DNA of 64,000 nt, taken from Amyelois transitella. Taxonomy: Eukaryota; Arthropoda; Insecta; Lepidoptera; Pyralidae. Below are positions 24,180 to 50,300 of this stretch, in pieces. Below the pieces are notes generated by a model, which did not search any database, was not told the origin of the DNA, and saw only the letters and a program-made list of their open reading frames with translations. Positions within the stretch are counted from its first letter, which is position 1, and each line of letters starts with the position of its first letter. The translations under genes and the position numbers were made by a program. The stretch is from contig NC_083520.1 of the NCBI RefSeq assembly GCF_032362555.1, positions 4,216,001-4,280,000 of the forward strand, read 5' to 3'.

Positions 24180-24303
24180 GGGGGCGCAATCGCGCGAATG
24201 GTGTTCAGCGATGGGGGGGCCGCGGCGCATGTCCAGTGCGCTGCTGCTGCCCTTTGCCTTGCTGTCTCTGCCTACTGCGGACGCGGCCAATACCACTTAC
24301 AGG
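24180..24303 (+). CDS. Receptor exon 1: 5' UTR end, start codon and signal peptide
   Basis: A TTGTTTCAG acceptor ends at 24179, so an upstream non-coding exon must exist. The ATG at 24211 has purine at -3 and G at +4. It is followed by arginines and a hydrophobic run ([14 protein letters not shown]), a signal peptide likely cut near TADA. The donor GTAAGT starts at 24304. Coding part 24211-24303 (31 codons, ends in phase 0). A second in-frame ATG lies at 24229. Confidence 0.85.
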
Positions 24304-42531: not shown

Positions 42532-45500
42532 ATACATAGTCACGTCTATATCCCTCACGGGGTAGACAAAGCCAACAATCTGAAAAGACTGATAGGCTAC
42601 ATTCAGCTGTTTGGCTTAATGATAAAATTGAGAATCAAATAGTGTCAGGTTGCTAGCCCATTGCCTACAAGAACAATCCCAAGTTTAAATTCCTATCCCT
42701 TCGTCGCCTTTTACGACATCATACACATAGGTGGTATTTTCCTTAATTTAGTGTAGTTGTTCTTACTACCAGAAATAAAAATACAATTCAACCAGAACAA
42801 ATTGATAATTTAACTCTTTTTTTCTTTCAGATGGCAGCTATATTCCCAGTGTTGGATAGATATTCATGTATAGCGACAAAATGGACTCGACACATGGGAT
42901 TTTGTATCACGTACACTGCCTTGCTCATGAAAACATGGAGGTATTTGCAGTCATTATAAATTTAACACCTTCTCTAAGTCATCCTCTATATCAGTGTAAC
43001 CCTTCATTAAATAAATTCTTCAAATGTTAACTTAAAATTTATTTATTTATGCTCTATTGTTTAATACAATCTGTACAGCACAATAAGCATTAAACTTAGT
43101 ATTTCTCCAAAAACAAAAAGTATTGGCATAACTTTAAAGGTCCCATTTTTGCAATTCCCCCCTTTTCAATTTAAAATTCATACACTTCTTGCCCAAAATC
43201 GTAGAGAGATTTTTATTGTTCCACTTGTTTTGATCCCTTTTTGGTATTATTTCAACATTCTACCATCTAGCTTAACATGACCATAGATGCTTTTGATTAT
43301 TCACTCATTCTTCCCCATGAGGGATAAAGAAAGACGTAAAATTTGTATGCATTCGTGTTGCAGGGTATCCCTTACATACCGAGTGAAGTCTGCCCATAAG
43401 TTGAAGTTGACCGACAAACAATTATTACAATGGATGGCGCCGATTCTTCTCATCATGCTGGTCTACTTGGGGACGTGGACGCTGTCCGCGCCGCCCGATG
43501 CTGAAGTTGTAAGTTGACATACCCTCTTCATTATAGAAATTGGAATAATATTAGGCAATAAAAAAGTTATATTATATGCAATTTTTTATACTTGAAAGTC
43601 TTACCTGTACATTCAACTGGATGCGGAACCATGATTTAATAGATATGGGTTTGGCTTTCCCTGCAAAGGTTGCGGAGTTCAGATAGGCGTCGCTTTGCGT
43701 AAAAACTTGACTTACCCAATCAAGGATCCACGGTCAAGGATGTACCCCCGGCTCCACTCCTTCACGACTCTGTGGCGCAACGGCAGTGCGCTTGTCTGAC
43801 TCAATAGGTGTCGGATTCGTATCTCGGTCATGGCATGATAAGAAACGAATCTTTTCTGATTGGCCTGGCTCCTGGATGTTTATCATAACACAAATTTAAA
43901 ACTTACTTCGATGTGTGTGATAAAAATAAAGTAGTGATAATGTAACCGAGACTATAGTCTGAAGGAAGAAGACTTGAATCTTCAAGTGTAATGTGTCTTT
44001 ATTACTTATTACTTTACGGGATAATTTAAAACCTTTGTATGTCCATCCTCATATTCTGATATTTTTAAGATTCAGGTGATAATGAAATTTCCCTCAAAAT
44101 GTTTTTAATTGTAATTTTCAGATCAAAGACAATAAAGGATTGAAATTCAAGCAATGCACGTATAACTGGTGGGATCATAGTTTAGCTATAGGTAAGTTTC
44201 AATTTATTTATAAGTAAATATTTAATTATCACGTGGCAGGTTATTCTGTGAAAAATCGTAGGAATTTGTGAGAAATCAAAATATAATAATAATAAGTTTT
44301 TAATTATTTTCAGGTGAAATTCTTTTTCTACTATGGGGCGTGAGAGTGTGCTATCGGGTTAGACACGCCGAGAGTCTGTACAACGAGGCGCGGCTCATAT
44401 CCATAGCTATTTACAACATCTTCACCGTCAACTCTATGATGATCGCTTTCCAGTGAGTTATTTGTAGGATATTGACAAAATTTTCCATTTTTTTTAAGCT
44501 TCAACAGCAAAAAACACGATGTCTATTGGGTCGTTTAATATTATACTAATCAATATCTCATGCTATATTTATCTCGTTTCAGTTTACTCATCCTGCCACA
44601 AGCCGGGCCGGACATAAAATATCTTTTAGGATTTATTAGAACACAGCTGTCAACATCCACCACAGTGTTATTGGTATTCTTACCTAAGGTATGTTTTTAC
44701 AGTTTACTTCAGTGTACTTCATATAGAAAAACGCTTTGAATTGAACTTACACGCAAAAGCTAGTATTCAGTAGGAACGGTATTGTAAAGAAGTTTACGTA
44801 CTTAATGTTAGATTCTTACTCCATTGTAAAATGACGGTCATATTTTCCGTGTATCTTCTTTTGACAGACGTGATAATATGTTTGTTATATACTTTTATTT
44901 GGTCAACCAGGTGCTACGCGTAGTTCGCGGTACGGGAGATACGTGGGACAGCCGAGCTCGAGCCCGAGGCGTTCCCGCCTCGTCTTCCCTCAACGGCATC
45001 GGGTTAGTGCCTGACGAACCTCCCGACCTCTATCAGGAGAACGAGGAACTAAAGGTGACAATTTTGAATTACATTTATTTTTAGAAAAATGACAGTCTCT
45101 ATGTTGCGTGTCTATGGTGCTGGAGATACGTGGGGCAGTTGAGTTCAAACCCGAGGAATTCTCGCTTCGTCTTATAAACGGCATCGGATTAGTGCCTGAC
45201 CTCTATCAAGTGAACGAGGAACTAAACTTTAACTTTTTCTGATTGGCTTGGGTCTTGGATGTTTATCTATATAAGTATTTATTATAAAATATAGCATCGT
45301 TGGGTTAGTATCTCGTAACACAAGTCTCGAACTTACTTCGAGGCTAACTCAATCTGTGTAATTTGTCATGTATAAAAAAAAAAAATTTGAAACTCATATT
45401 CAGGTGGTTTCAAACGAAAAATGACAGACGCTATAATGTGTGAACTGACTATGGTAAAGACCTCTATCAAGAGAACGAGGAACTAAAAAACTAAGAAAGT

Positions 45501-47079
45501 ATGTACTAAGTAATTTAACAAGTAGCTTTTCTATTTAAGTGGTTCTGATGAAATTCTGATATTAGGTGATGTACTATAATAATTTTGCATAGTTTATGGT
45601 ACCTACTAGGAAAATGTGGAAAAATACCGTAACACACTAGTGATTAACAAAGTTTTGAATAAACAAAAATAATATATATTTTTTTATAATTCCAGGAGGA
45701 AGTGCAAAAGCTAGCAGCTCAAATAGAATTCATGAAGATAGTACAAATGGAGATGCACAACAGACATTTGAGGCCCCGCGTCGGCAGTTATTTCACGGCT
45801 AATGCCAGCGCCAACGCTAAACAGAGTCCGATGCATCCTAACACTGTCAACATTACACAGGTAATTACATTATTGTCAGGCACTAAAATAATCTGAAAGT
45901 GAATATAAATTTAATACGAATGTAGGTACCTAATAAAAATGCAAGTAATAATGATGCTGCGCAGGTCAGATGGGAGTCACTTCGAGTAAAAATCTAACTT
46001 ACTCAGTCATGTGTCATTGTAGCTTTCGAATGGATGAACCAATAGGCTATTTTACACCATGTAAAAAAAAATATAAAAATGCACGTATCTTATAGATTTT
46101 GTAAAAAATAAAAGAAAAACATCGATCATTATTCATAAAAGTGCAATATGGATTTTATAATTCAATTTAAAAAATCCTCTTTTTTAATCTGTTCTTCAAA
46201 AGTCGAAAACGCTATCCGCCATGTTGGGTACTGACGTGACGTCATACTTTTAGTAAACAAATATCGAATCGAAAACATATTGATGATGTCAGGCTCTGTT
46301 TATTTTGAAATTTTAAAATTTCTATCACGTTTTTGGGTTTTTACTCTTTAATAATTTAATAGAATCATGGAAGACGGTTTTGTGAAAGCAGACAATATAA
46401 ATCTACTGAGGATTAATACGTTGATGGTGGCGAAATTTTTTGCGTCCAATCCCGATTTCTGTTCTGCTGAGTTAAGATTTTTCTGGTGTTTTTATACTTG
46501 TATTCTTGCATTCAGGAACAAGACACCAACAATATGTATTGTAATTCATTATTACAAAAATCTTTTTACTTTAGTCTTACGTAGAGCCGTATTGTTTACT
46601 AAAAGTATGACGTCACGAGTCAAAACAGCATGGCGGATGGCGTTTTCGCGCGAAAATACAAAATCATAAATAATAAATCGTTTTTAGAGCACTTTTCGGC
46701 TTCAAAAAATTTTAATAAAAATTCTATAGGTATAACACAGTCTCAGGATTGATTTAAAACAGTTTTCAAAAAAGAGTGTAATAGCCTATTCAAATTTGAG
46801 TGAAAGTTGTATTAATCAGTAAGGTTCTCAACTAAAAATGTTTGATGAAAATCGGTCTAAGATTCGATTTCTAATGTATTTTATCACAACTCCATCTCAA
46901 GTGTATCAAATGAAAGGGCTTGAGTAGTAGGTACTTAATTTAAATTAAAAAAAAAAATCACCTTATTCTATGTACTATTCCCAATTCATAGAATTAGTTG
47001 TTTTTTTTTTTAATTATTTAAATGTATTGTGATTTGTTTCCAGTCAATGGACAGCACGGAGTGGGCGGGCCCCGTGTGA
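24211..47079 (+). CDS. Orphan class C GPCR of the GPR158/GPR179 (mGlyR-like) family, 16 coding exons
   Basis: Hand-assembled gene: 24211-24303, 38442-38625, 38728-38923, 39455-39613, 40125-40263, 40506-40638, 41355-41487, 41974-42127, 42831-42940, 43364-43508, 44122-44191, 44314-44452, 44583-44688, 44911-45054, 45696-45860, 47044-47079. All junctions are GT-AG and phases agree, giving 701 codons. Order of parts: signal peptide (1-27), Cache-like ectodomain (about 60-235, with [16 protein letters not shown] and [11 protein letters not shown]), Cys-rich EGF-like module (244-345, with [10 protein letters not shown] and CxxCxxGCxTCxGPEPC), seven membrane segments (about 346-587, ending VFLPK at TM7), and a short tail with a charged helix ([12 protein letters not shown]). 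The ectodomain plus seven-helix order is that of GPR158/GPR179, whose vertebrate GPR158 binds glycine and recruits RGS7. Insects have several paralogues (in Drosophila, Smog and CG31760-like). I cannot tell which this is, so no symbol is given. The vertebrate proteins have much longer tails. Located at the plasma membrane. Confidence 0.9.
24403..24459. repeat. Perfect inverted repeat: 26-bp arms, 5-nt loop
   Basis: Arms 24403-24428 and 24434-24459 are exact reverse complements, separated by TTAGT. It lies 100 bases downstream of the receptor exon 1 donor. No element ends or target duplications are visible. Confidence 0.9.
25210..25375 (+). repeat. R3 repeat fragment
   Basis: Contains GAGGAAACCTGCATATTTAA, GGTTGCGAAAGTCAGATGA and ACTAACGCCAGTGGGAGAAG, diverged from the R3 body. 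Confidence 0.5.
25704..25803 (+). repeat. R1 repeat 3' fragment
   Basis: CTGAACATGGCCTTTCTGAG, TTGGCGCTGTCTTC, AGGGATAAAGAC and a TATGTACGTACCTATGTAT tail match the last third of R1. Confidence 0.6.
25845..25900. repeat. Perfect inverted repeat: 26-bp arms, 4-nt loop
   Basis: Arms 25845-25870 and 25875-25900 are exact reverse complements around TAGT. The sequence is unrelated to the hairpin at 24403, but the arm length and small loop are the same. Confidence 0.9.
26930..27036 (+). repeat. R1 repeat, internally deleted
   Basis: CTATGGATGTTGTAAAAGGC is followed almost directly by GTTGGTCTACCCCGCAAGAG and a TTATGTATGTAC tail, so the middle of R1 is missing. Confidence 0.65.
28409..28510 (+). 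repeat. R3 repeat head fragment
   Basis: TTGCCGAATCGGTAGGTAAG, CTCGGCCATGTACCAATGAC and GTTGTGAACATTAGTTTG match the first third of the R3 copy at 9721. Confidence 0.55.
28541..28695 (-). mobile_element. Helitron-like repeat (GCTGTTGCCCGCGACTT family)
   Basis: Begins ACTAGCTGTTGCCCGCGACT, has AATCTTGATCATACAGTTAG and CCATTTCAGTCAAAAATACT, and ends TTTTATTATATGTATAGA. Nearly the same as 16903-17065. Confidence 0.6.
29293..29535 (-). repeat. R1 repeat, near full length
   Basis: A CATACATACATATAATCACG start, GGGGTAGACAG, GGCCACGTTCAGCTG, TTGCTAGCC, and a degraded end GCCGAAAACCACACTC. Confidence 0.75.
30210..30266 (-). repeat. R1 tail fragment
   Basis: A CATACATACATACATAT run followed by GGCTATATCCCTTATC. 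Only the 3' end of R1 remains. Confidence 0.45.
30355..30545 (-). repeat. R3 repeat, partial
   Basis: TTTACTCCCGGTTACATCCT, GGAGAGGAGCCCGGGG, ATGGATCCTGGATTCGATGA and AGACTCCCATCTGACCTCAG are the R3 body in reverse. Confidence 0.6.
30930..31072 (+). repeat. R3 repeat, partial
   Basis: GAAGGTTGCGAAAGACAGGC, GGGAGTAGCTTCATCC and AAAACCTGACTTACCCAATC match the R3 body. Confidence 0.55.
31093..31141. repeat. Alternative-pairing inverted repeat
   Basis: ACCAGTCTGGT and ACCAGACTGGT form a 12-bp stem (31111-31122 with 31127-31138, 4-nt loop). An earlier near-copy at 31093-31107 can pair with the same right arm (15 positions, one mismatch), so two hairpins compete. Confidence 0.7.
31556..31753 (+). 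mobile_element. Complete Lep1-like Helitron
   Basis: Starts CCTACTAATATTAAAAATGC then GAAAGTTTGCGAG. Has TAGGCTACTTTTTATCCCGG in the middle and ends GGACGAAGTCGCGGGCGGCC then TCTAGT. This is the cleanest copy of the type in the window. Confidence 0.65.
32268..32415 (+). mobile_element. LINE 3'-end remnant
   Basis: A LINE-like 3' sequence (TTGATGAAGCGAAAGGAGTA, TGCAGGGATCGTTGCAAGTG, AATGTAGTCAATGCC) corresponds to the C-terminus coded by lepidopteran non-LTR elements (AKGVCRDR-K followed by a V-V motif). It is interrupted by stops. Related to the copy at 56040. Confidence 0.5.
33440..33565 (-). mobile_element. Helitron-like fragment
   Basis: GCGACCCTCCCCGACTTCGC then ACGGGTAGC is the reverse of a common GC-rich repeat terminus. 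The remainder, ending near ACATAGACAGAG, is decayed. Confidence 0.4.
34513..34745 (+). repeat. R1 repeat with a deletion in the first third
   Basis: The head GCCGTGTGGTTCCCGGCACA is intact. The CCATCTCTTTCCC block is lost. The ATTGGCTTGCAACCTGTCAC and CTGAACGTGGCCTTTCAG blocks and a TGCATGTATGTATG tail are present. Confidence 0.75.
35825..36000 (-). repeat. R3 repeat, partial
   Basis: GAGAAGTCCGGTGTCGTCTT, AAGTCAGGTTTTTACACAAA, GTCTGATCTCCGCAACCTTT and CCTAAATGTGCAGGATTTC are the R3 body in reverse. Confidence 0.55.
36428..36640 (-). mobile_element. Helitron-like repeat, reverse orientation
   Basis: Starts CAAGCTTTTACCCACCGCTT then CGCCCGCGCC, with AAAAAGTGCCCTATGTCCTT (shared with the copy at 14292) and an AT-rich end near 36640. 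Confidence 0.5.
36660..36960 (+). repeat. R4 dispersed repeat, two tandem partial copies
   Basis: TTTCTAGACCCAGCATATTG and, about 150 bases later, CTCTAGACCCAGCGATATGG, each followed by a CTGTGCGTT core and a CAGTCGTT or CAGTCAGTGTC end. These are the best examples of the R4 family. Confidence 0.55.
38442..38625 (+). CDS. Receptor exon 2 (ectodomain)
   Basis: Acceptor ATTACAG ends at 38441, donor GTTAGT at 38626. 184 bases, enters in phase 0 and leaves one base over. Encodes [13 protein letters not shown] through [10 protein letters not shown]. Longer frames here in other registers are shadows caused by GC-rich codon use. Confidence 0.88.
38728..38923 (+). CDS. Receptor exon 3 (start of Cache-like domain)
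   Basis: Acceptor TATCACAG, donor GTAAGT. 196 bases, encoding [20 protein letters not shown] through QPNPEYP. Phase continues exactly from exon 2. Confidence 0.88.
39274..39425 (+). repeat. R1 repeat, heavily decayed
   Basis: CTTTATGAACTTGGGTTTCT, GAACGTGGTTCGAAT, TTTTCCAAGACTACTGGC and AATAAAGACGTGAAT follow the order of R1. It lies in the intron before exon 4. Confidence 0.5.
39455..39613 (+). CDS. Receptor exon 4 (Cache-like core)
   Basis: Acceptor TGATTCTAG, donor GTAATT. 159 bases. Encodes [28 protein letters not shown] and [13 protein letters not shown]. The aromatic-rich W-x-x-P-Y-x-N/D-C pattern and the following strand are the family signature that decided the call. Confidence 0.9.
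40125..40263 (+). CDS. Receptor exon 5 (end of Cache-like domain)
   Basis: Acceptor GCGTTTCAG, donor GTGAGT. 139 bases. Encodes [16 protein letters not shown] (typical last strand of a Cache fold) and then the first Cys of the Cys-rich module (HKCPNETTY). Confidence 0.9.
40380..40475 (-). repeat. R3 repeat fragment
   Basis: GGCTATAGTCCCGATTACCT, CATCCACAGCACTCTG and CTAGGAGCTCGGAGTACGCC are diverged reverse R3. Intron 5 of the receptor. Confidence 0.45.
40506..40638 (+). CDS. Receptor exon 6 (EGF-like, Cys-rich)
   Basis: Acceptor CATTTCAG, donor GTATGG. 133 bases. Encodes CEYKPNREV and [13 protein letters not shown], with EGF-like cysteine spacing. Confidence 0.9.
41220..41266. repeat. Perfect inverted repeat: 17-bp arms, 13-nt loop
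   Basis: Arms 41220-41236 and 41250-41266 (TTACCAAGTCAATAAAA and its reverse complement). It lies in the intron 88 bases before receptor exon 7. Confidence 0.88.
41355..41487 (+). CDS. Receptor exon 7 (Cys-rich linker to TM1)
   Basis: Acceptor TTTTTCAG, donor GTAGGC. 133 bases. Encodes [18 protein letters not shown], the six-cysteine linker typical of class C receptors, then TYNWPF. Confidence 0.92.
41974..42127 (+). CDS. Receptor exon 8 (TM1-TM2)
   Basis: Acceptor ACATTTCAG, donor GTAAAT. 154 bases. Encodes [19 protein letters not shown] (TM1), a basic intracellular loop ([11 protein letters not shown]) and [14 protein letters not shown] (TM2). Confidence 0.93.
42250..42526 (+). mobile_element. 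tRNA-derived SINE (R2) with poly(A) tail
   Basis: A tRNA-like head (42250-42322) has an A box TGGCTCAGCGGT and a B box GGTTCGAATCC. It is followed by a unique body (TTTTCTGATTGTCTTGGGTC, CTCGTAACACAAG, CTTCGAGGCTAACTCAATC) and an A-run of about 35 (42492-42526). It sits in the receptor intron after exon 8. The long pure A tail suggests recent insertion. A true tRNA is unlikely because of the body and tail. Confidence 0.85.
42528..42728 (-). repeat. R1 repeat immediately after the SINE tail
   Basis: ATACATATACATAGTCACGT, CCCTCACGGGGTAGACAAAG, GGTTGCTAGCCCATTGCC and CGTCGCCTTTTACGACATC. It is cut off before the R1 head. It directly abuts the poly(A) of the SINE, so one probably inserted into the end of the other. 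Confidence 0.75.
42831..42940 (+). CDS. Receptor exon 9 (TM3)
   Basis: Acceptor TTCTTTCAG, donor GTATTT. 110 bases. Encodes [20 protein letters not shown] then [15 protein letters not shown]. The extracellular Cys before TM3 is the conserved disulphide position in this receptor class. Confidence 0.92.
43364..43508 (+). CDS. Receptor exon 10 (intracellular loop 2, TM4)
   Basis: Acceptor TGTTGCAG, donor GTAAGT. 145 bases. Encodes [20 protein letters not shown] then [18 protein letters not shown]. Confidence 0.92.
43640..43765 (+). repeat. R3 repeat fragment
   Basis: GGTTGCGGAGTTCAGATAGG, AAAACTTGACTTACCCAATC, AAGGATCCACGGTCAAGG and CCCCCGGCTCCACTCC. It lies directly before a SINE R2 copy. Confidence 0.6.
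43767..43990 (+). mobile_element. tRNA-derived SINE (R2), older copy
   Basis: Head CTCTGTGGCGCAACGGCAGT, a degraded B box, body TTTTCTGATTGGCCTGGCTC and CATAACACAAATTTAAAACTT. No clean poly(A). Confidence 0.65.
44122..44191 (+). CDS. Receptor exon 11 (extracellular loop 2)
   Basis: Acceptor AATTTTCAG, donor GTAAGT. 70 bases. Encodes [20 protein letters not shown], carrying the partner Cys of the TM3 disulphide. Confidence 0.9.
44314..44452 (+). CDS. Receptor exon 12 (TM5-TM6)
   Basis: Acceptor ATTTTCAG, donor GTGAGT. 139 bases. Encodes [20 protein letters not shown], then [20 protein letters not shown] and MMIAF. Confidence 0.92.
44583..44688 (+). CDS. Receptor exon 13 (TM7)
   Basis: Acceptor CGTTTCAG, donor GTATGT. 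106 bases. Encodes [20 protein letters not shown], then [13 protein letters not shown]. The FLPK ending of TM7 is a class C hallmark. Confidence 0.93.
44911..45054 (+). CDS. Receptor exon 14 (start of cytoplasmic tail)
   Basis: Acceptor GTCAACCAG, donor GTGACA (weak). 144 bases, both ends in phase 0. Encodes [20 protein letters not shown] through [11 protein letters not shown] symmetric exon that has decayed duplicates downstream at 45115 and 45459. Confidence 0.88.
45115..45227 (+). pseudogene. Decayed duplicate of receptor exon 14
   Basis: Lines up along most of exon 14: GCTGGAGATACGTGGG, AAACCCGAGG, AACGGCATCGGATTAGTGCC, CTCTATCAAGTGAACGAGG and AACTAAA. It has an in-frame TGA after the GDTWGS-equivalent residues. 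It lacks 12 bases between two GAC words and lacks the donor. It lies 60 bases after the real exon and cannot be spliced in usefully. Confidence 0.85.
45229..45388 (+). mobile_element. SINE R2, 5'-truncated
   Basis: Starts inside the SINE body (CTTTTTCTGATTGGCTTGGG) and ends with the CTTCGAGGCTAACTCAATC block and a short A-run. No tRNA-like head. It separates the two exon 14 duplicates. Confidence 0.8.
45459..45488 (+). pseudogene. Second, shorter duplicate of the end of receptor exon 14
   Basis: GACCTCTATCAAGAGAACGA then GGAACTAAAA repeats the last 29 bases of exon 14 with one change. The flank just upstream (AAAATGACAGACGCTATAAT) resembles the flank of the first duplicate (AAAAATGACAGTCTCTATGT), so the copied unit was larger than the exon. 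Confidence 0.75.
45696..45860 (+). CDS. Receptor exon 15 (helical tail segment)
   Basis: Acceptor TAATTCCAG, donor GTAATT. 165 bases, phase 0 at both ends. Encodes [20 protein letters not shown] then a polar stretch. The [19 protein letters not shown] junction with exon 14 makes a heptad-like helix suited to coiled-coil pairing, as in metabotropic class C receptors. Confidence 0.88.
46041..46790 (+). mobile_element. DNA element with long inverted repeats and a short ORF
   Basis: Ends are inverted: AATAGGCTATTTTACAC on the left and GTGTAATAGCCTATT on the right. The inverted relation continues inside for about 200 bases (CGAAAACGCTATCCGCCATG against CATGGCGGATGGCGTTTTCG, and CGTGACGTCATACTTTTAGT against its reverse complement), so each arm is about 200 bp with decay. 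Between the arms is an ORF at 46367-46669 whose first part ([10 protein letters not shown], then [20 protein letters not shown]) recurs in the element at 56394. No transposase domain is visible. No clear target-site duplication. It lies in the last intron of the receptor gene. Confidence 0.75.
47044..47079 (+). CDS. Receptor exon 16, last coding exon
   Basis: Acceptor GTTTCCAG. Encodes [11 protein letters not shown] then TGA at 47077-47079. The stop is followed by C (UGA-C), a leaky context. The frame stays open for 33 more codons in very GC-rich DNA up to TGA at 47179-47181 (see findings). Confidence 0.85.
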   Translation, partial: SMDSTEWAGPV

Positions 47080-47343
47080 CTGGTGGCGCTGAGCGACGGC
47101 GGCTGGGCGTGGCCGGGCGCGCGGCCCGCCGGCGCGCGCGTGCGCAGGCGGCCCGACGCGCGCGCGCCCGCCTTCGTGTGACATTATATATTTACAAATA
47201 AAGATATGTTGTATCATTTAGTTCAACGTTCGTTTCTAAAACGCTAGTGATGAAGAAGCGGAGGAGTAAACTGGCTGCAGTTTTGTTATAACGAGTAGAA
47301 CTGTGAGCTTGCATGTGACGCGTGGTCGTGCTTTATAAATAAA
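47080..47343 (+). other. Receptor 3' region with GC-rich block and poly(A) signals
   Basis: A block of extreme GC content (47080-47180) is followed abruptly by AT-rich DNA. AATAAA signals occur at 47197-47202 and 47338-47343. The transcript may extend further. Confidence 0.6.
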
Positions 47344-50300
47344 AATATATTTATTTTTAGAATACCTTATTCGAGGTTCGCTTTTAACTAGTGACGGTTA
47401 GCGACAGCGAGGAGGCGTGTGTCAGCGCCAGGCCATTATGTTAGTTGGCGTAGTGAAACTCAATAGTTAGAAACTTGAAGCAGGATGTGCGCCCGTTTTC
47501 GTGTGACCATACGAAGACTCGCCCATACGTTTTAATATTTTCAAATAAGATGTCAGTACAATGTAGCTTTTTGAGAGAAAGTGAAAAAAATAAAGAAACA
47601 ACACTATGTTAGCTAACATGCAACTATAAGTACCTACTTGATTTTTTGGATGCCATAAAATTGAAAATTACTCATGAAAAAAAAAAATAATTTAATTTAT
47701 CAGGATTTTTTAAACACTAGTTAAATTAAAGAAGAAATATAAAGCCAGTGAATTTTTTTTATGCCACCATAACTTGGTTTGCAATGCCCCTTTGTGTGGA
47801 ATTTTGATATTTTATAAATTTGTATAGGAACTTTTGTCTCCCATGTGGTAGTCATTCTGTAGATTTGGTTGGTTTAACGTCGGCATGCAAAGAAAATAAA
47901 TATATAAGACTAGATAATATGTAGTTATTGACTTCATCAAAGTCGTACTTATGTAGGTATAATTTCGAAATGTAAGCTGTGAGATGAGGGGATTCTTAAA
48001 CTGTTGTTTACAGGAATTTTATTTGTAAGTATCTACCTATGTAGTTATTTTTTTATAGTTGGTAATGTATTTAAAAATATCTATTTAACATGAAAAAAGT
48101 TAAATCGCTATTAGATGAGTCCCAAAGAGTCCCAATTTTTTCAATAGAAATATAGTCGGGGCTGTGAGAGGAATTCAATCGACAATTGCAAAGTTAATAC
48201 ATTCAAGCAACAAATAATAACACCATGTTTCATATCAATTATTAACTTTAAAAATTAAATCACTGGTTTTAAAAATCGAATTCATAAAAAGAATATTTAA
48301 ACTCCATTAAATTTTAACGTAATTAATGAACTTATTGCTAATAGCATTCTTTGTAAGTAATGATAAACATCAAGACAATCCACACATTATTGGTCCACAA
48401 GCTGTTGATCGCGCATTAAATCTCTAATATTTAACTTTTTATTTAATTCTAGTGTCTAAACTCTATTATTGCAAAGTTTCATGAAAATTCCGTTCCATAG
48501 TTCTTGCGTGAAAGAGACACAAACACATAAACATCGTTACAAACTTTTGGTATTTAATTATTCAAGTAGTATTTAATTTGGCAGACTCGACGCTTGTTAG
48601 CATTCTGTGATAGAAACAGCAGATAAAATCTTAACATTCATGAATACTTATAAAAAAATTATATCTTAAATGTGATGTGTAAGATAGGTAAGCGGAATCA
48701 GGTATGTTCCTTTCTAACTATTTAGCGGGAGCTATGTCCAGCCCTCACCGCCACAAAAAAGATTTTACAACACAGGTGGACAAAGATTTGATACATTACT
48801 TCACTAAACGAAATTACATGAAAGATAAAGAACAATCGGCACGACTCTATTTTATTAAATGATTATATTCCAATTTTGTCTATTTATTTATGTAAATACA
48901 TGTTTTTTATAATTTTTAAGTCTATGTACATTTTACTAGACTGAAAAGTCGCTTAGTCAATCAAATACTTGTATCTACTTTGTAAATAGGTAATGTATAC
49001 TTTTGCTTTGAGTTTAATTTTTGTGGTGTTGTAGTTATATAGCATAGATATAAAAAAAATTATTGTTGAATTGATGCTCTGTATGTGTTTAGGGCTGACA
49101 ATAAGAAAAAACAAAAAAGTTATTTTAATAAGCCTCCGGAAATCAAATAAACAATCAATGAAAAGTAAACAAACATTAATTAACAATTTGTTGACTAATC
49201 AAAATTATTTCATAAAATGTTTTAGTCTAGTTATTTATTGTATACTATAGGTACATAGAATAAATAAAATGATTTGTAAATATGATGAAAATTCATCGTA
49301 AAGCATAAATTCTAAAGTGATGTACATAAATTAGTGATTATTTATTTTATTTTATTTATCGTCTGTGATAATGTATATTCGTCATTATTAAATGTTATTA
49401 TATAAAAGCTTTATATTGAGATATGTCATTTGGATGAAAGACGCTTACACGCTGTGCACATAGCACAAAAATTATCTTTGCTAGATTTTTGTTGATTTAT
49501 GAATGTGGATGGAGCAAAAAAATTTAGAACAATTGTAAGTGGAAAGATCTACCTTGTATTGCCTATCACTCCGTGAAAGAGGCGTAATTTGTAGGTAGTA
49601 GTGAATGTCAAAATAGTATCTGCAATTCAGACTTTCTTGAGCAGCCTCATAACCTATCCCTGGGTGGTATACTGTGGCTCAGCAATCCGAAGTGATCTTT
49701 GTTTGATGACGTCATTTCTTGTTGTCTTCCACTGATGAATCTGAAGTCTTACAGAATACTCTAACGATACCCATCGGCCACTTGGTTAACCCATGTTTGC
49801 TTTTCATGGCAACATTTCTTCTTCACAATTATTTTTTTATTTTTACATTTAATATTTACGGAGTACAATTTTTTGCCTGTTAGATACATACTTTATGTAT
49901 CTAACAGGCAAAAAATTGCCAAAAAATTGCTTGTACTCCTTGCTCACATGTTACAAAACATTTTAATCGTCCTGCTAGCTTTTGTCCCAGATTCAATAAA
50001 AAGTTGCTTTGCCTAGCGTTTAGAAAGAAATTCATTCATCCAAAATTTCGCTTTCATTTGCAAATGGTAAGTACCGTTGGGGGCAAAAACTAATTACTTT
50101 TTCATATACTTATTTATATCGATCGTGATTAGTTATATCTGCTCTTGCCCAGCTGGATTTCGAATAAATATTATTATTGACTGAACAGAGTAATCTCATA
50201 ACATACTTATATTTAAAAAAAACGATAACAATAAATTAAAAAAAAACTTTTTTTATGCTTAGTAACCAATTTTAATTTTACATTTTTATGTTTCTGCTAA

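Follow-up and report, generated by a model that had tools for sequence, protein, structure and literature searches.

Stop-codon readthrough is a known phenomenon: it affects many genes in most of the insects tested, and among the fly and mosquito candidates the stop is TGA in 61–76% and the next base is C in 49–63% (PMC5100048). For G protein-coupled receptors there is a precedent in vertebrates, OPRL1 and OPRK1, whose readthrough was measured in cells and occurs at the motif UGA-CUAG (PMC4132726). Concerning Lepidoptera, the authors of PMC10917498 declare that they are unaware of a documented readthrough frequency. The receptor gene considered here, located in a window of 64,000 nucleotides of the genome of Amyelois transitella, is a candidate new case.

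To judge by its translation, the gene is a class C orphan receptor of the GPR158/GPR179 type. The translation contains a 7tm_3 domain (PF00003, E 9e-33) with best matches to GPR158/GPR179, and, once the exons were joined, it matched GPR179/GPR158 in the PDB (8irj, E 9e-19). All the features described below are on the forward strand. An exon at 44907..45054, recognized by its open frame and PDB match and with borders set by eye, covers the end of the seventh-helix region and runs into the beginning of the coiled-coil tail. The penultimate exon (45696..45860; frame, PDB match and splice letters, left border by eye) ends in NTVNITQ at a phase 0 donor, CAG/gtaatt, and is joined in phase 0 to the exon that starts at 47044 behind the acceptor tttgtttccag.

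The frame that starts at 47044 proceeds as the sequence-only reading had described it: 11 codons that start the last coding exon (47044..47076, from frame reading and splice letters), a first stop that is UGA followed by CUGG (47077..47079), 33 sense codons that constitute the candidate extension, LVALSDGGWAWPGARPAGARVRRRPDARAPAFV (47080..47178), and a second in-frame UGA (47179..47181). An AATAAA that might be a polyadenylation signal, recognized by motif only, lies 15 bases past the second stop (47197..47202). The earlier statement that UGA-C is favoured in insect readthrough agrees with the published candidates (PMC5100048), and the receptor hexamer, UGA-CUGG, differs from the strong one, UGA-CUAG. 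The flank CGTGTGAC was indeed common to both stops (47073 and 47175), and was found also at 47500, 30721 and 35485, the copy at 47500 lying where the region of the second stop has been duplicated in tandem. The GC-rich block had been said to end exactly on the second stop; as a maximal segment it spans 47049–47172, with 85% GC, and its border falls 9 bases short of the last base of that stop. The DNA directly past the stop is AT-rich, as claimed, and the coincidence of stop and composition border is weak evidence, since a stop falls within three codons in 20% of cases in the AT-rich parts of the window.

The coding signature considered here consisted of GC3, rarity and likelihoods, and is not the published Z curve score. 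GC by codon position in the extension was 28/33, 25/33 and 33/33 (GC3 > GC1 > GC2), with P = 0.0033 for the third position in the frame fixed beforehand, a signal that depends on just 13 A/T letters. Third-position composition is coding-like on either side of the first stop (GC3 in 10/11 codons before it) and continuous across it; GC3 in two other exons of the same receptor gene was only 0.55 and 0.60. A GC3 of 100% is beyond what protein-level selection itself explains, and other forces that raise GC at exons could account for it. In terms of coding likelihood, frame 0 was 14.8 to 21 log units ahead of the two other forward frames. Its gain over flat composition was 1.7, 4.2 and 5.2 log units with three hand-chosen parameter sets, and only 1.3 with parameters pooled from three control exons. 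The gap between the sense frame and one antisense frame was no more than about 2 to 3 units, and this antisense frame exceeded flat composition in two of the four parameter sets.

Rarity was estimated in 244 kb of this genome, containing 31,200 stop triplets. After only seven of these does the frame stay open for 33 codons with 28 or more GC third positions, and the receptor stop alone reaches 33; GC3 before the stop is also highest in the receptor (10/11), followed by 8/11 in one other case and by 2 to 5 in the rest. In the same 244 kb, GC reaches 75% or more in four blocks, and the three others are exon-like (GC3 of 1.0, 1.0 and 0.88), one of them being by homology a UBE3C-like HECT exon. 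These single-genome tests argue, with moderate strength, that the 33-codon stretch is now, or was recently, protein-coding in the receptor frame.

The leading explanation, still a tentative one, is that a leaky UGA-C would be read through, adding 33 codons to the receptor tail. The last exon would then encode a single 44-codon tail interrupted by the leaky stop: the majority of ribosomes would terminate at 47077, while a fraction would decode the UGA as an amino acid and continue for 33 codons to 47179. The product would gain, right after the coiled coil, an Arg/Ala/Pro-rich and probably disordered end of the cytoplasmic tail, which selection may have kept. The extension includes ARVR, which may be a trafficking motif of the arginine type; because 42% of shuffles contain a motif of this kind by chance, a role as a trafficking signal is a guess. 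The earlier proposal of receptor readthrough is partly supported, by the coding-like composition and the UGA-C context; its arguments from the open frame and from the composition border carry little weight.

It is doubtful, albeit a serious alternative, that the protein really terminates at the first UGA and that the block is a 3′ UTR, with its GC content and open frame due to chance or to GC-biased conversion spreading from the exon. As the sequence-only reading had itself conceded, high GC makes open frames likely, and 88% of shuffles at the composition of the block stay open; the few A/T letters behind the third-position signal and the small advantage of the coding model under pooled control parameters go in the same direction. 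An untranslated end agrees less well with GC at all 33 third positions, with the resemblance of the three other GC-rich blocks to coding exons, and with the AT-rich DNA that begins at once past the second stop.

A slightly less probable alternative is that the ancestral protein ran to 47179 and the UGA appeared by mutation, in the species or in the individual, or by assembly error, so that the extension would be an untranslated coding relic. The same composition signature would be expected, and recent nonsense substitutions and sequencing errors are named as false signals of its single-species test in PMC5100048, which subtracts an estimate of them scaled from 17 nonsense mutations in D. melanogaster. 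Nevertheless, the fly has 283 to 333 readthrough candidates versus about 17 such mutations, so that the prior favours readthrough, and the UGA-C context favours it further. A diverged tandem copy of 47077–47201 also bears on this point. It was found by sequence comparison at 47385..47548, where it aligns as three collinear segments (identities of 33/50, 17/19 and 13/14), and has TAA-CTAG (UAA-CUAG) at the place of the first stop. Because of this TAA, a weak hint, the first stop may be older than the duplication, which argues against a recent gain; the probability of a chance stop at that place is about 0.07, given the stop rate of AT-rich window parts.

The receptor copy is open, while the tandem copy has lower GC, a slipped frame and further in-frame stops. 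Of 20 differences, 13 are strong-to-weak toward the downstream copy versus 1 weak-to-strong, and the three codon positions have similar numbers of them (7, 5 and 7), with no protein-level constraint seen in this comparison. The GC gap between the copies could equally mean GC gain in the first one. A fuller version of the readthrough explanation, possible but rather unlikely as a whole, is that this orphan GPR158-type receptor of a lepidopteran may have a long-standing translated readthrough tail, whose segment and stop would have been duplicated long ago, the untranslated copy decaying as a built-in neutral control and the in-frame copy being kept open.

Alternative splicing is improbable, whether by an isoform that skips the UGA, by another frame or acceptor, or by use of the downstream copy as an alternative last exon. 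There is a plausible acceptor, tttatttttag at 47360, leading to NTLFEVRF* in phase 0, and four in-frame GT...AG pairs would remove the UGA on paper. Against this, the introns so defined have 18, 33, 72 and 87 bases and, by eye, lack a pyrimidine tract; no AG between the two stops opens an exon continuing frame 0 from the phase-0 donor; and neither of the other forward frames comes near frame 0 in its fit to coding composition. Structure-driven readthrough of the headcase type was considered and rejected, as the predicted fold of the RNA past the stop is no more stable than those of shuffled sequences (z +0.93 and +0.56). Comparison of 44000–50000 with 4227 Rfam families, presumably including those of SECIS, gave no match at gathering scores. 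Selenocysteine insertion, favoured by the UGA codon alone, is extremely improbable, with no SECIS match in that region and no selenoproteins in fully sequenced Lepidoptera according to PMC2500217.

If the readthrough explanation is true, a class C receptor joins the known readthrough genes, the catalogue is widened to an order in which PMC10917498 knows of no documented frequency, and a testable variable receptor tail is provided, for which the decayed copy next to it serves as control. The locus resembles the Drosophila and Anopheles cases in having an in-frame second ORF 10 or more codons long, UGA-C and a coding-like frame 0 past the stop, and differs in being known from a single genome, that of a lepidopteran. 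Like GPR158 and GPR179, the receptor has a class C seven-helix domain followed by a coiled coil, but its tail is short, whereas vertebrate tails are long. With respect to OPRL1 and OPRK1, which have UGA-CUAG and were measured in cells, the present case is a class C receptor with UGA-CUGG (UAA-CUAG in the diverged copy) known from sequence alone; what they would share is a GPCR extended past UGA-CU.

The class C receptor gene on the + strand was recognised by a Pfam 7tm_3 match (E 9e-33) when its last exons were joined and translated, and a PDB search with the joined translation gave GPR179 and GPR158 as the best solved relatives (best E 9e-19), with a match that extends past the seventh helix. 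The penultimate exon runs to 45860 (CAG followed by gtaatt, + strand) and the last one starts at 47044 (+ strand), behind the acceptor tttgtttccag and with a phase 0 junction. In the frame of this last exon, the first stop is the UGA at 47077-47079 (+ strand), after which the extension translates as LVALSDGGWAWPGARPAGARVRRRPDARAPAFV up to a second UGA at 47179-47181. The sequence-only reading had described this first stop, 33 open codons, a GC-rich block and the second UGA, and frame reading and composition bear out the description: 47049-47172 is 85% GC and its surroundings are AT-rich. Far upstream, another GC-rich stretch (24198-24300, + strand) shows by eye an ATG with a frame that is hydrophobic and resembles a signal peptide, and is a candidate first coding exon for a + strand gene, perhaps the receptor.

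No Pfam family was found for the short receptor tail plus extension. The searched genome comprised 327 Mb in 33 contigs, the window being 64 kb of contig 16. This genome yielded no close paralogue of the tail, two matches with E about 2 being taken as chance; neither 46900-47300 nor 47044-47600 had another place, the second match of the former being AT-rich and in the same intron. A repeat or mobile element at the last exon was thus rejected. A single copy of the region is not proven by these searches, since they skip simple repeats and very common words. Searches of the penultimate exon against viral contigs and prokaryotic genome contigs, and of the seven-helix domain against viral contigs, gave no relative, as expected there. 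Separately, nested inverted repeats lie in the intron that precedes the last exon (46041-46068 with 46763-46790, 71%; 46204-46260 with 46592-46648, 84%) and enclose a 104-aa open frame within 46041-46790, perhaps a small non-autonomous mobile element.

The interpretation of the extension as a readthrough tail was partly supported. The open frame is no evidence, because the extension stays open in 88% of shuffles at the same composition, just as the earlier caution that high GC makes open frames likely by chance had it. The GC border on the second stop, previously taken as a mark of coding constraint, is weak evidence, since a stop occurs within three codons of AT-rich DNA in 20% of cases; the flank common to both stops, an 8-mer that occurs five times in the window, was given no weight. 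The arginine motif ARVR in the extension is not above chance, such a motif occurring in 42% of shuffles, and was likewise discounted. The support comes instead from third-position composition: of 13 A/T letters in the extension, 5 fall at first, 8 at second and 0 at third codon positions (hypergeometric P=0.0033 for the absence from third positions, with the frame set in advance by the exon upstream). The extension is matched in this by the 11 codons ahead of the first stop, with a GC3 of 10/11. A coding model favoured frame 0 over the other forward frames by at least 14.8 log units with each of four parameter sets, while one antisense frame lay about 2 to 3 log units from frame 0 and outscored flat composition with two of these sets. 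Compared to flat composition, the gain of frame 0 was +1.7, +4.2 and +5.2 log units with three hand-chosen parameter sets, but only +1.3 with parameters pooled from three control exons. This smaller gain shifts some weight from readthrough to a main rival explanation, that the block is an untranslated GC-rich end of the exon, which we consider rather unlikely.

The control sample of 244,000 bases consisted of the window and 18 of 20 sampled genome stretches, excluding the two that overlap the window. A GC content of at least 75% over 100 bases occurred at four places, the receptor block included. The other three, with exon borders and frames picked by eye, were exon-like open frames on the reverse strand (GC3 of 1.0, 1.0 and 0.88); 17 further rows at 68 to 72% GC were viewed only as open-frame lists at the places concerned. 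One control block is a UBE3C-like HECT exon (stretch L011, - strand, 76% GC) with no Pfam family at the cut-off; the other two had no Pfam match, and one of these no PDB match either. At 1235-1654 of L011, this HECT exon shares one open frame with its own diverged tandem copy of about 55% GC (RFINEQGLDEAGIDQDGVFKG and RFIKEQGLSQAGINQDGLFKG), which may reflect exon duplication or mutually exclusive exon use. The survey of stop triplets covered 31,200 on both strands. In 7 cases the next 33 codons were open and had G or C at 28 or more third positions; the antisense of the receptor block itself (32/33) was one such case, and the first receptor stop was alone in having 33/33. Over the 11 codons that precede each of these stops, GC3 was highest for the receptor (10), followed by that in stretch L017 (8) and the others (2 to 5). 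Taken together, the exon-like blocks and the stop survey indicate that the highest GC marks exon-like sequence in the sample, and that the coding look is continuous across the receptor UGA.

The other main rival, that an ancestrally longer tail gained a stop, would give a single-genome picture identical to that of readthrough. A diverged tandem copy downstream, however, bears on it. The copy aligns in three pieces on the + strand: 47077-47126 with 47385-47434 (33/50 identical), 47164-47182 with 47489-47507 (17/19) and 47188-47201 with 47535-47548 (13/14). The chained alignment scored 45. Three kinds of shuffles, 9,000 in all, reached at most 41.1, and 928 comparisons to other window pieces on both strands at most 35.7; the first piece alone was weaker, its score being reached by 0/1,000 shuffles of the copy and 3/1,000 of the GC-rich side. 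At the place of the first stop, the copy has TAA followed by CTAG, the chance of a stop there being about 0.07. If the homology includes the stop, then it is older than the duplication, which makes an assembly error or a recent nonsense mutation less likely. The downstream copy has 51% GC, an in-frame TAG and a slipped frame; among 20 differences, 13 are G/C to A/T in the downstream copy and 1 is the reverse. The downstream copy appears to be the changed one, although a GC gain in the first copy would look identical. By codon position the differences number 7, 5 and 7, an even spread that gives no sign of protein-level selection. No further copy was found in the genome by the search that skips simple repeats. 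A plausible splice acceptor at 47360 precedes the copy; if used, it would create another version of the last exon, reading NTLFEVRF* in phase 0.

Splicing that bypasses the receptor stop and selenocysteine incorporation at its UGA are both unlikely. From the sequence, readthrough of the receptor stop is the most likely account, though a tentative one to which we give somewhat less than an even chance. It would proceed by low or regulated decoding of UGA by a near-cognate tRNA, and would add a basic end (6 Arg, 2 Asp), probably disordered, to the cytoplasmic tail of the receptor. RNA structure as its driver was rejected, folding at the stop being no different from shuffles, and so was an Rfam family at the receptor end. 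Among the titles and abstract openings listed, none from the readthrough literature on Drosophila, Anopheles, Lepidoptera, Bombyx mori and moths describes the present case; those listed on CG31760/CG32447 and Smog/CG31660/GPR158 do not either, and the literature searched listed no report of readthrough in the GPR158-type family.

As a phenomenon, readthrough is described as abundant in most of the insects tested, Tribolium and Apis being exceptions by the measure of that paper, and fly and mosquito candidates have TGA in 61-76% and C as the next base in 49-63% of cases (PMC5100048). UGA is described as the stop with the highest readthrough potential, UGA-C exceeding other contexts (PMC8417969). 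On the evidence of one genome, the receptor UGA-C is a fair candidate for this known phenomenon. In the strong vertebrate signal, UGA-CUAG, the three bases after C matter too (PMC4132726); the first stop of the receptor differs from it in reading UGA-CUGG.
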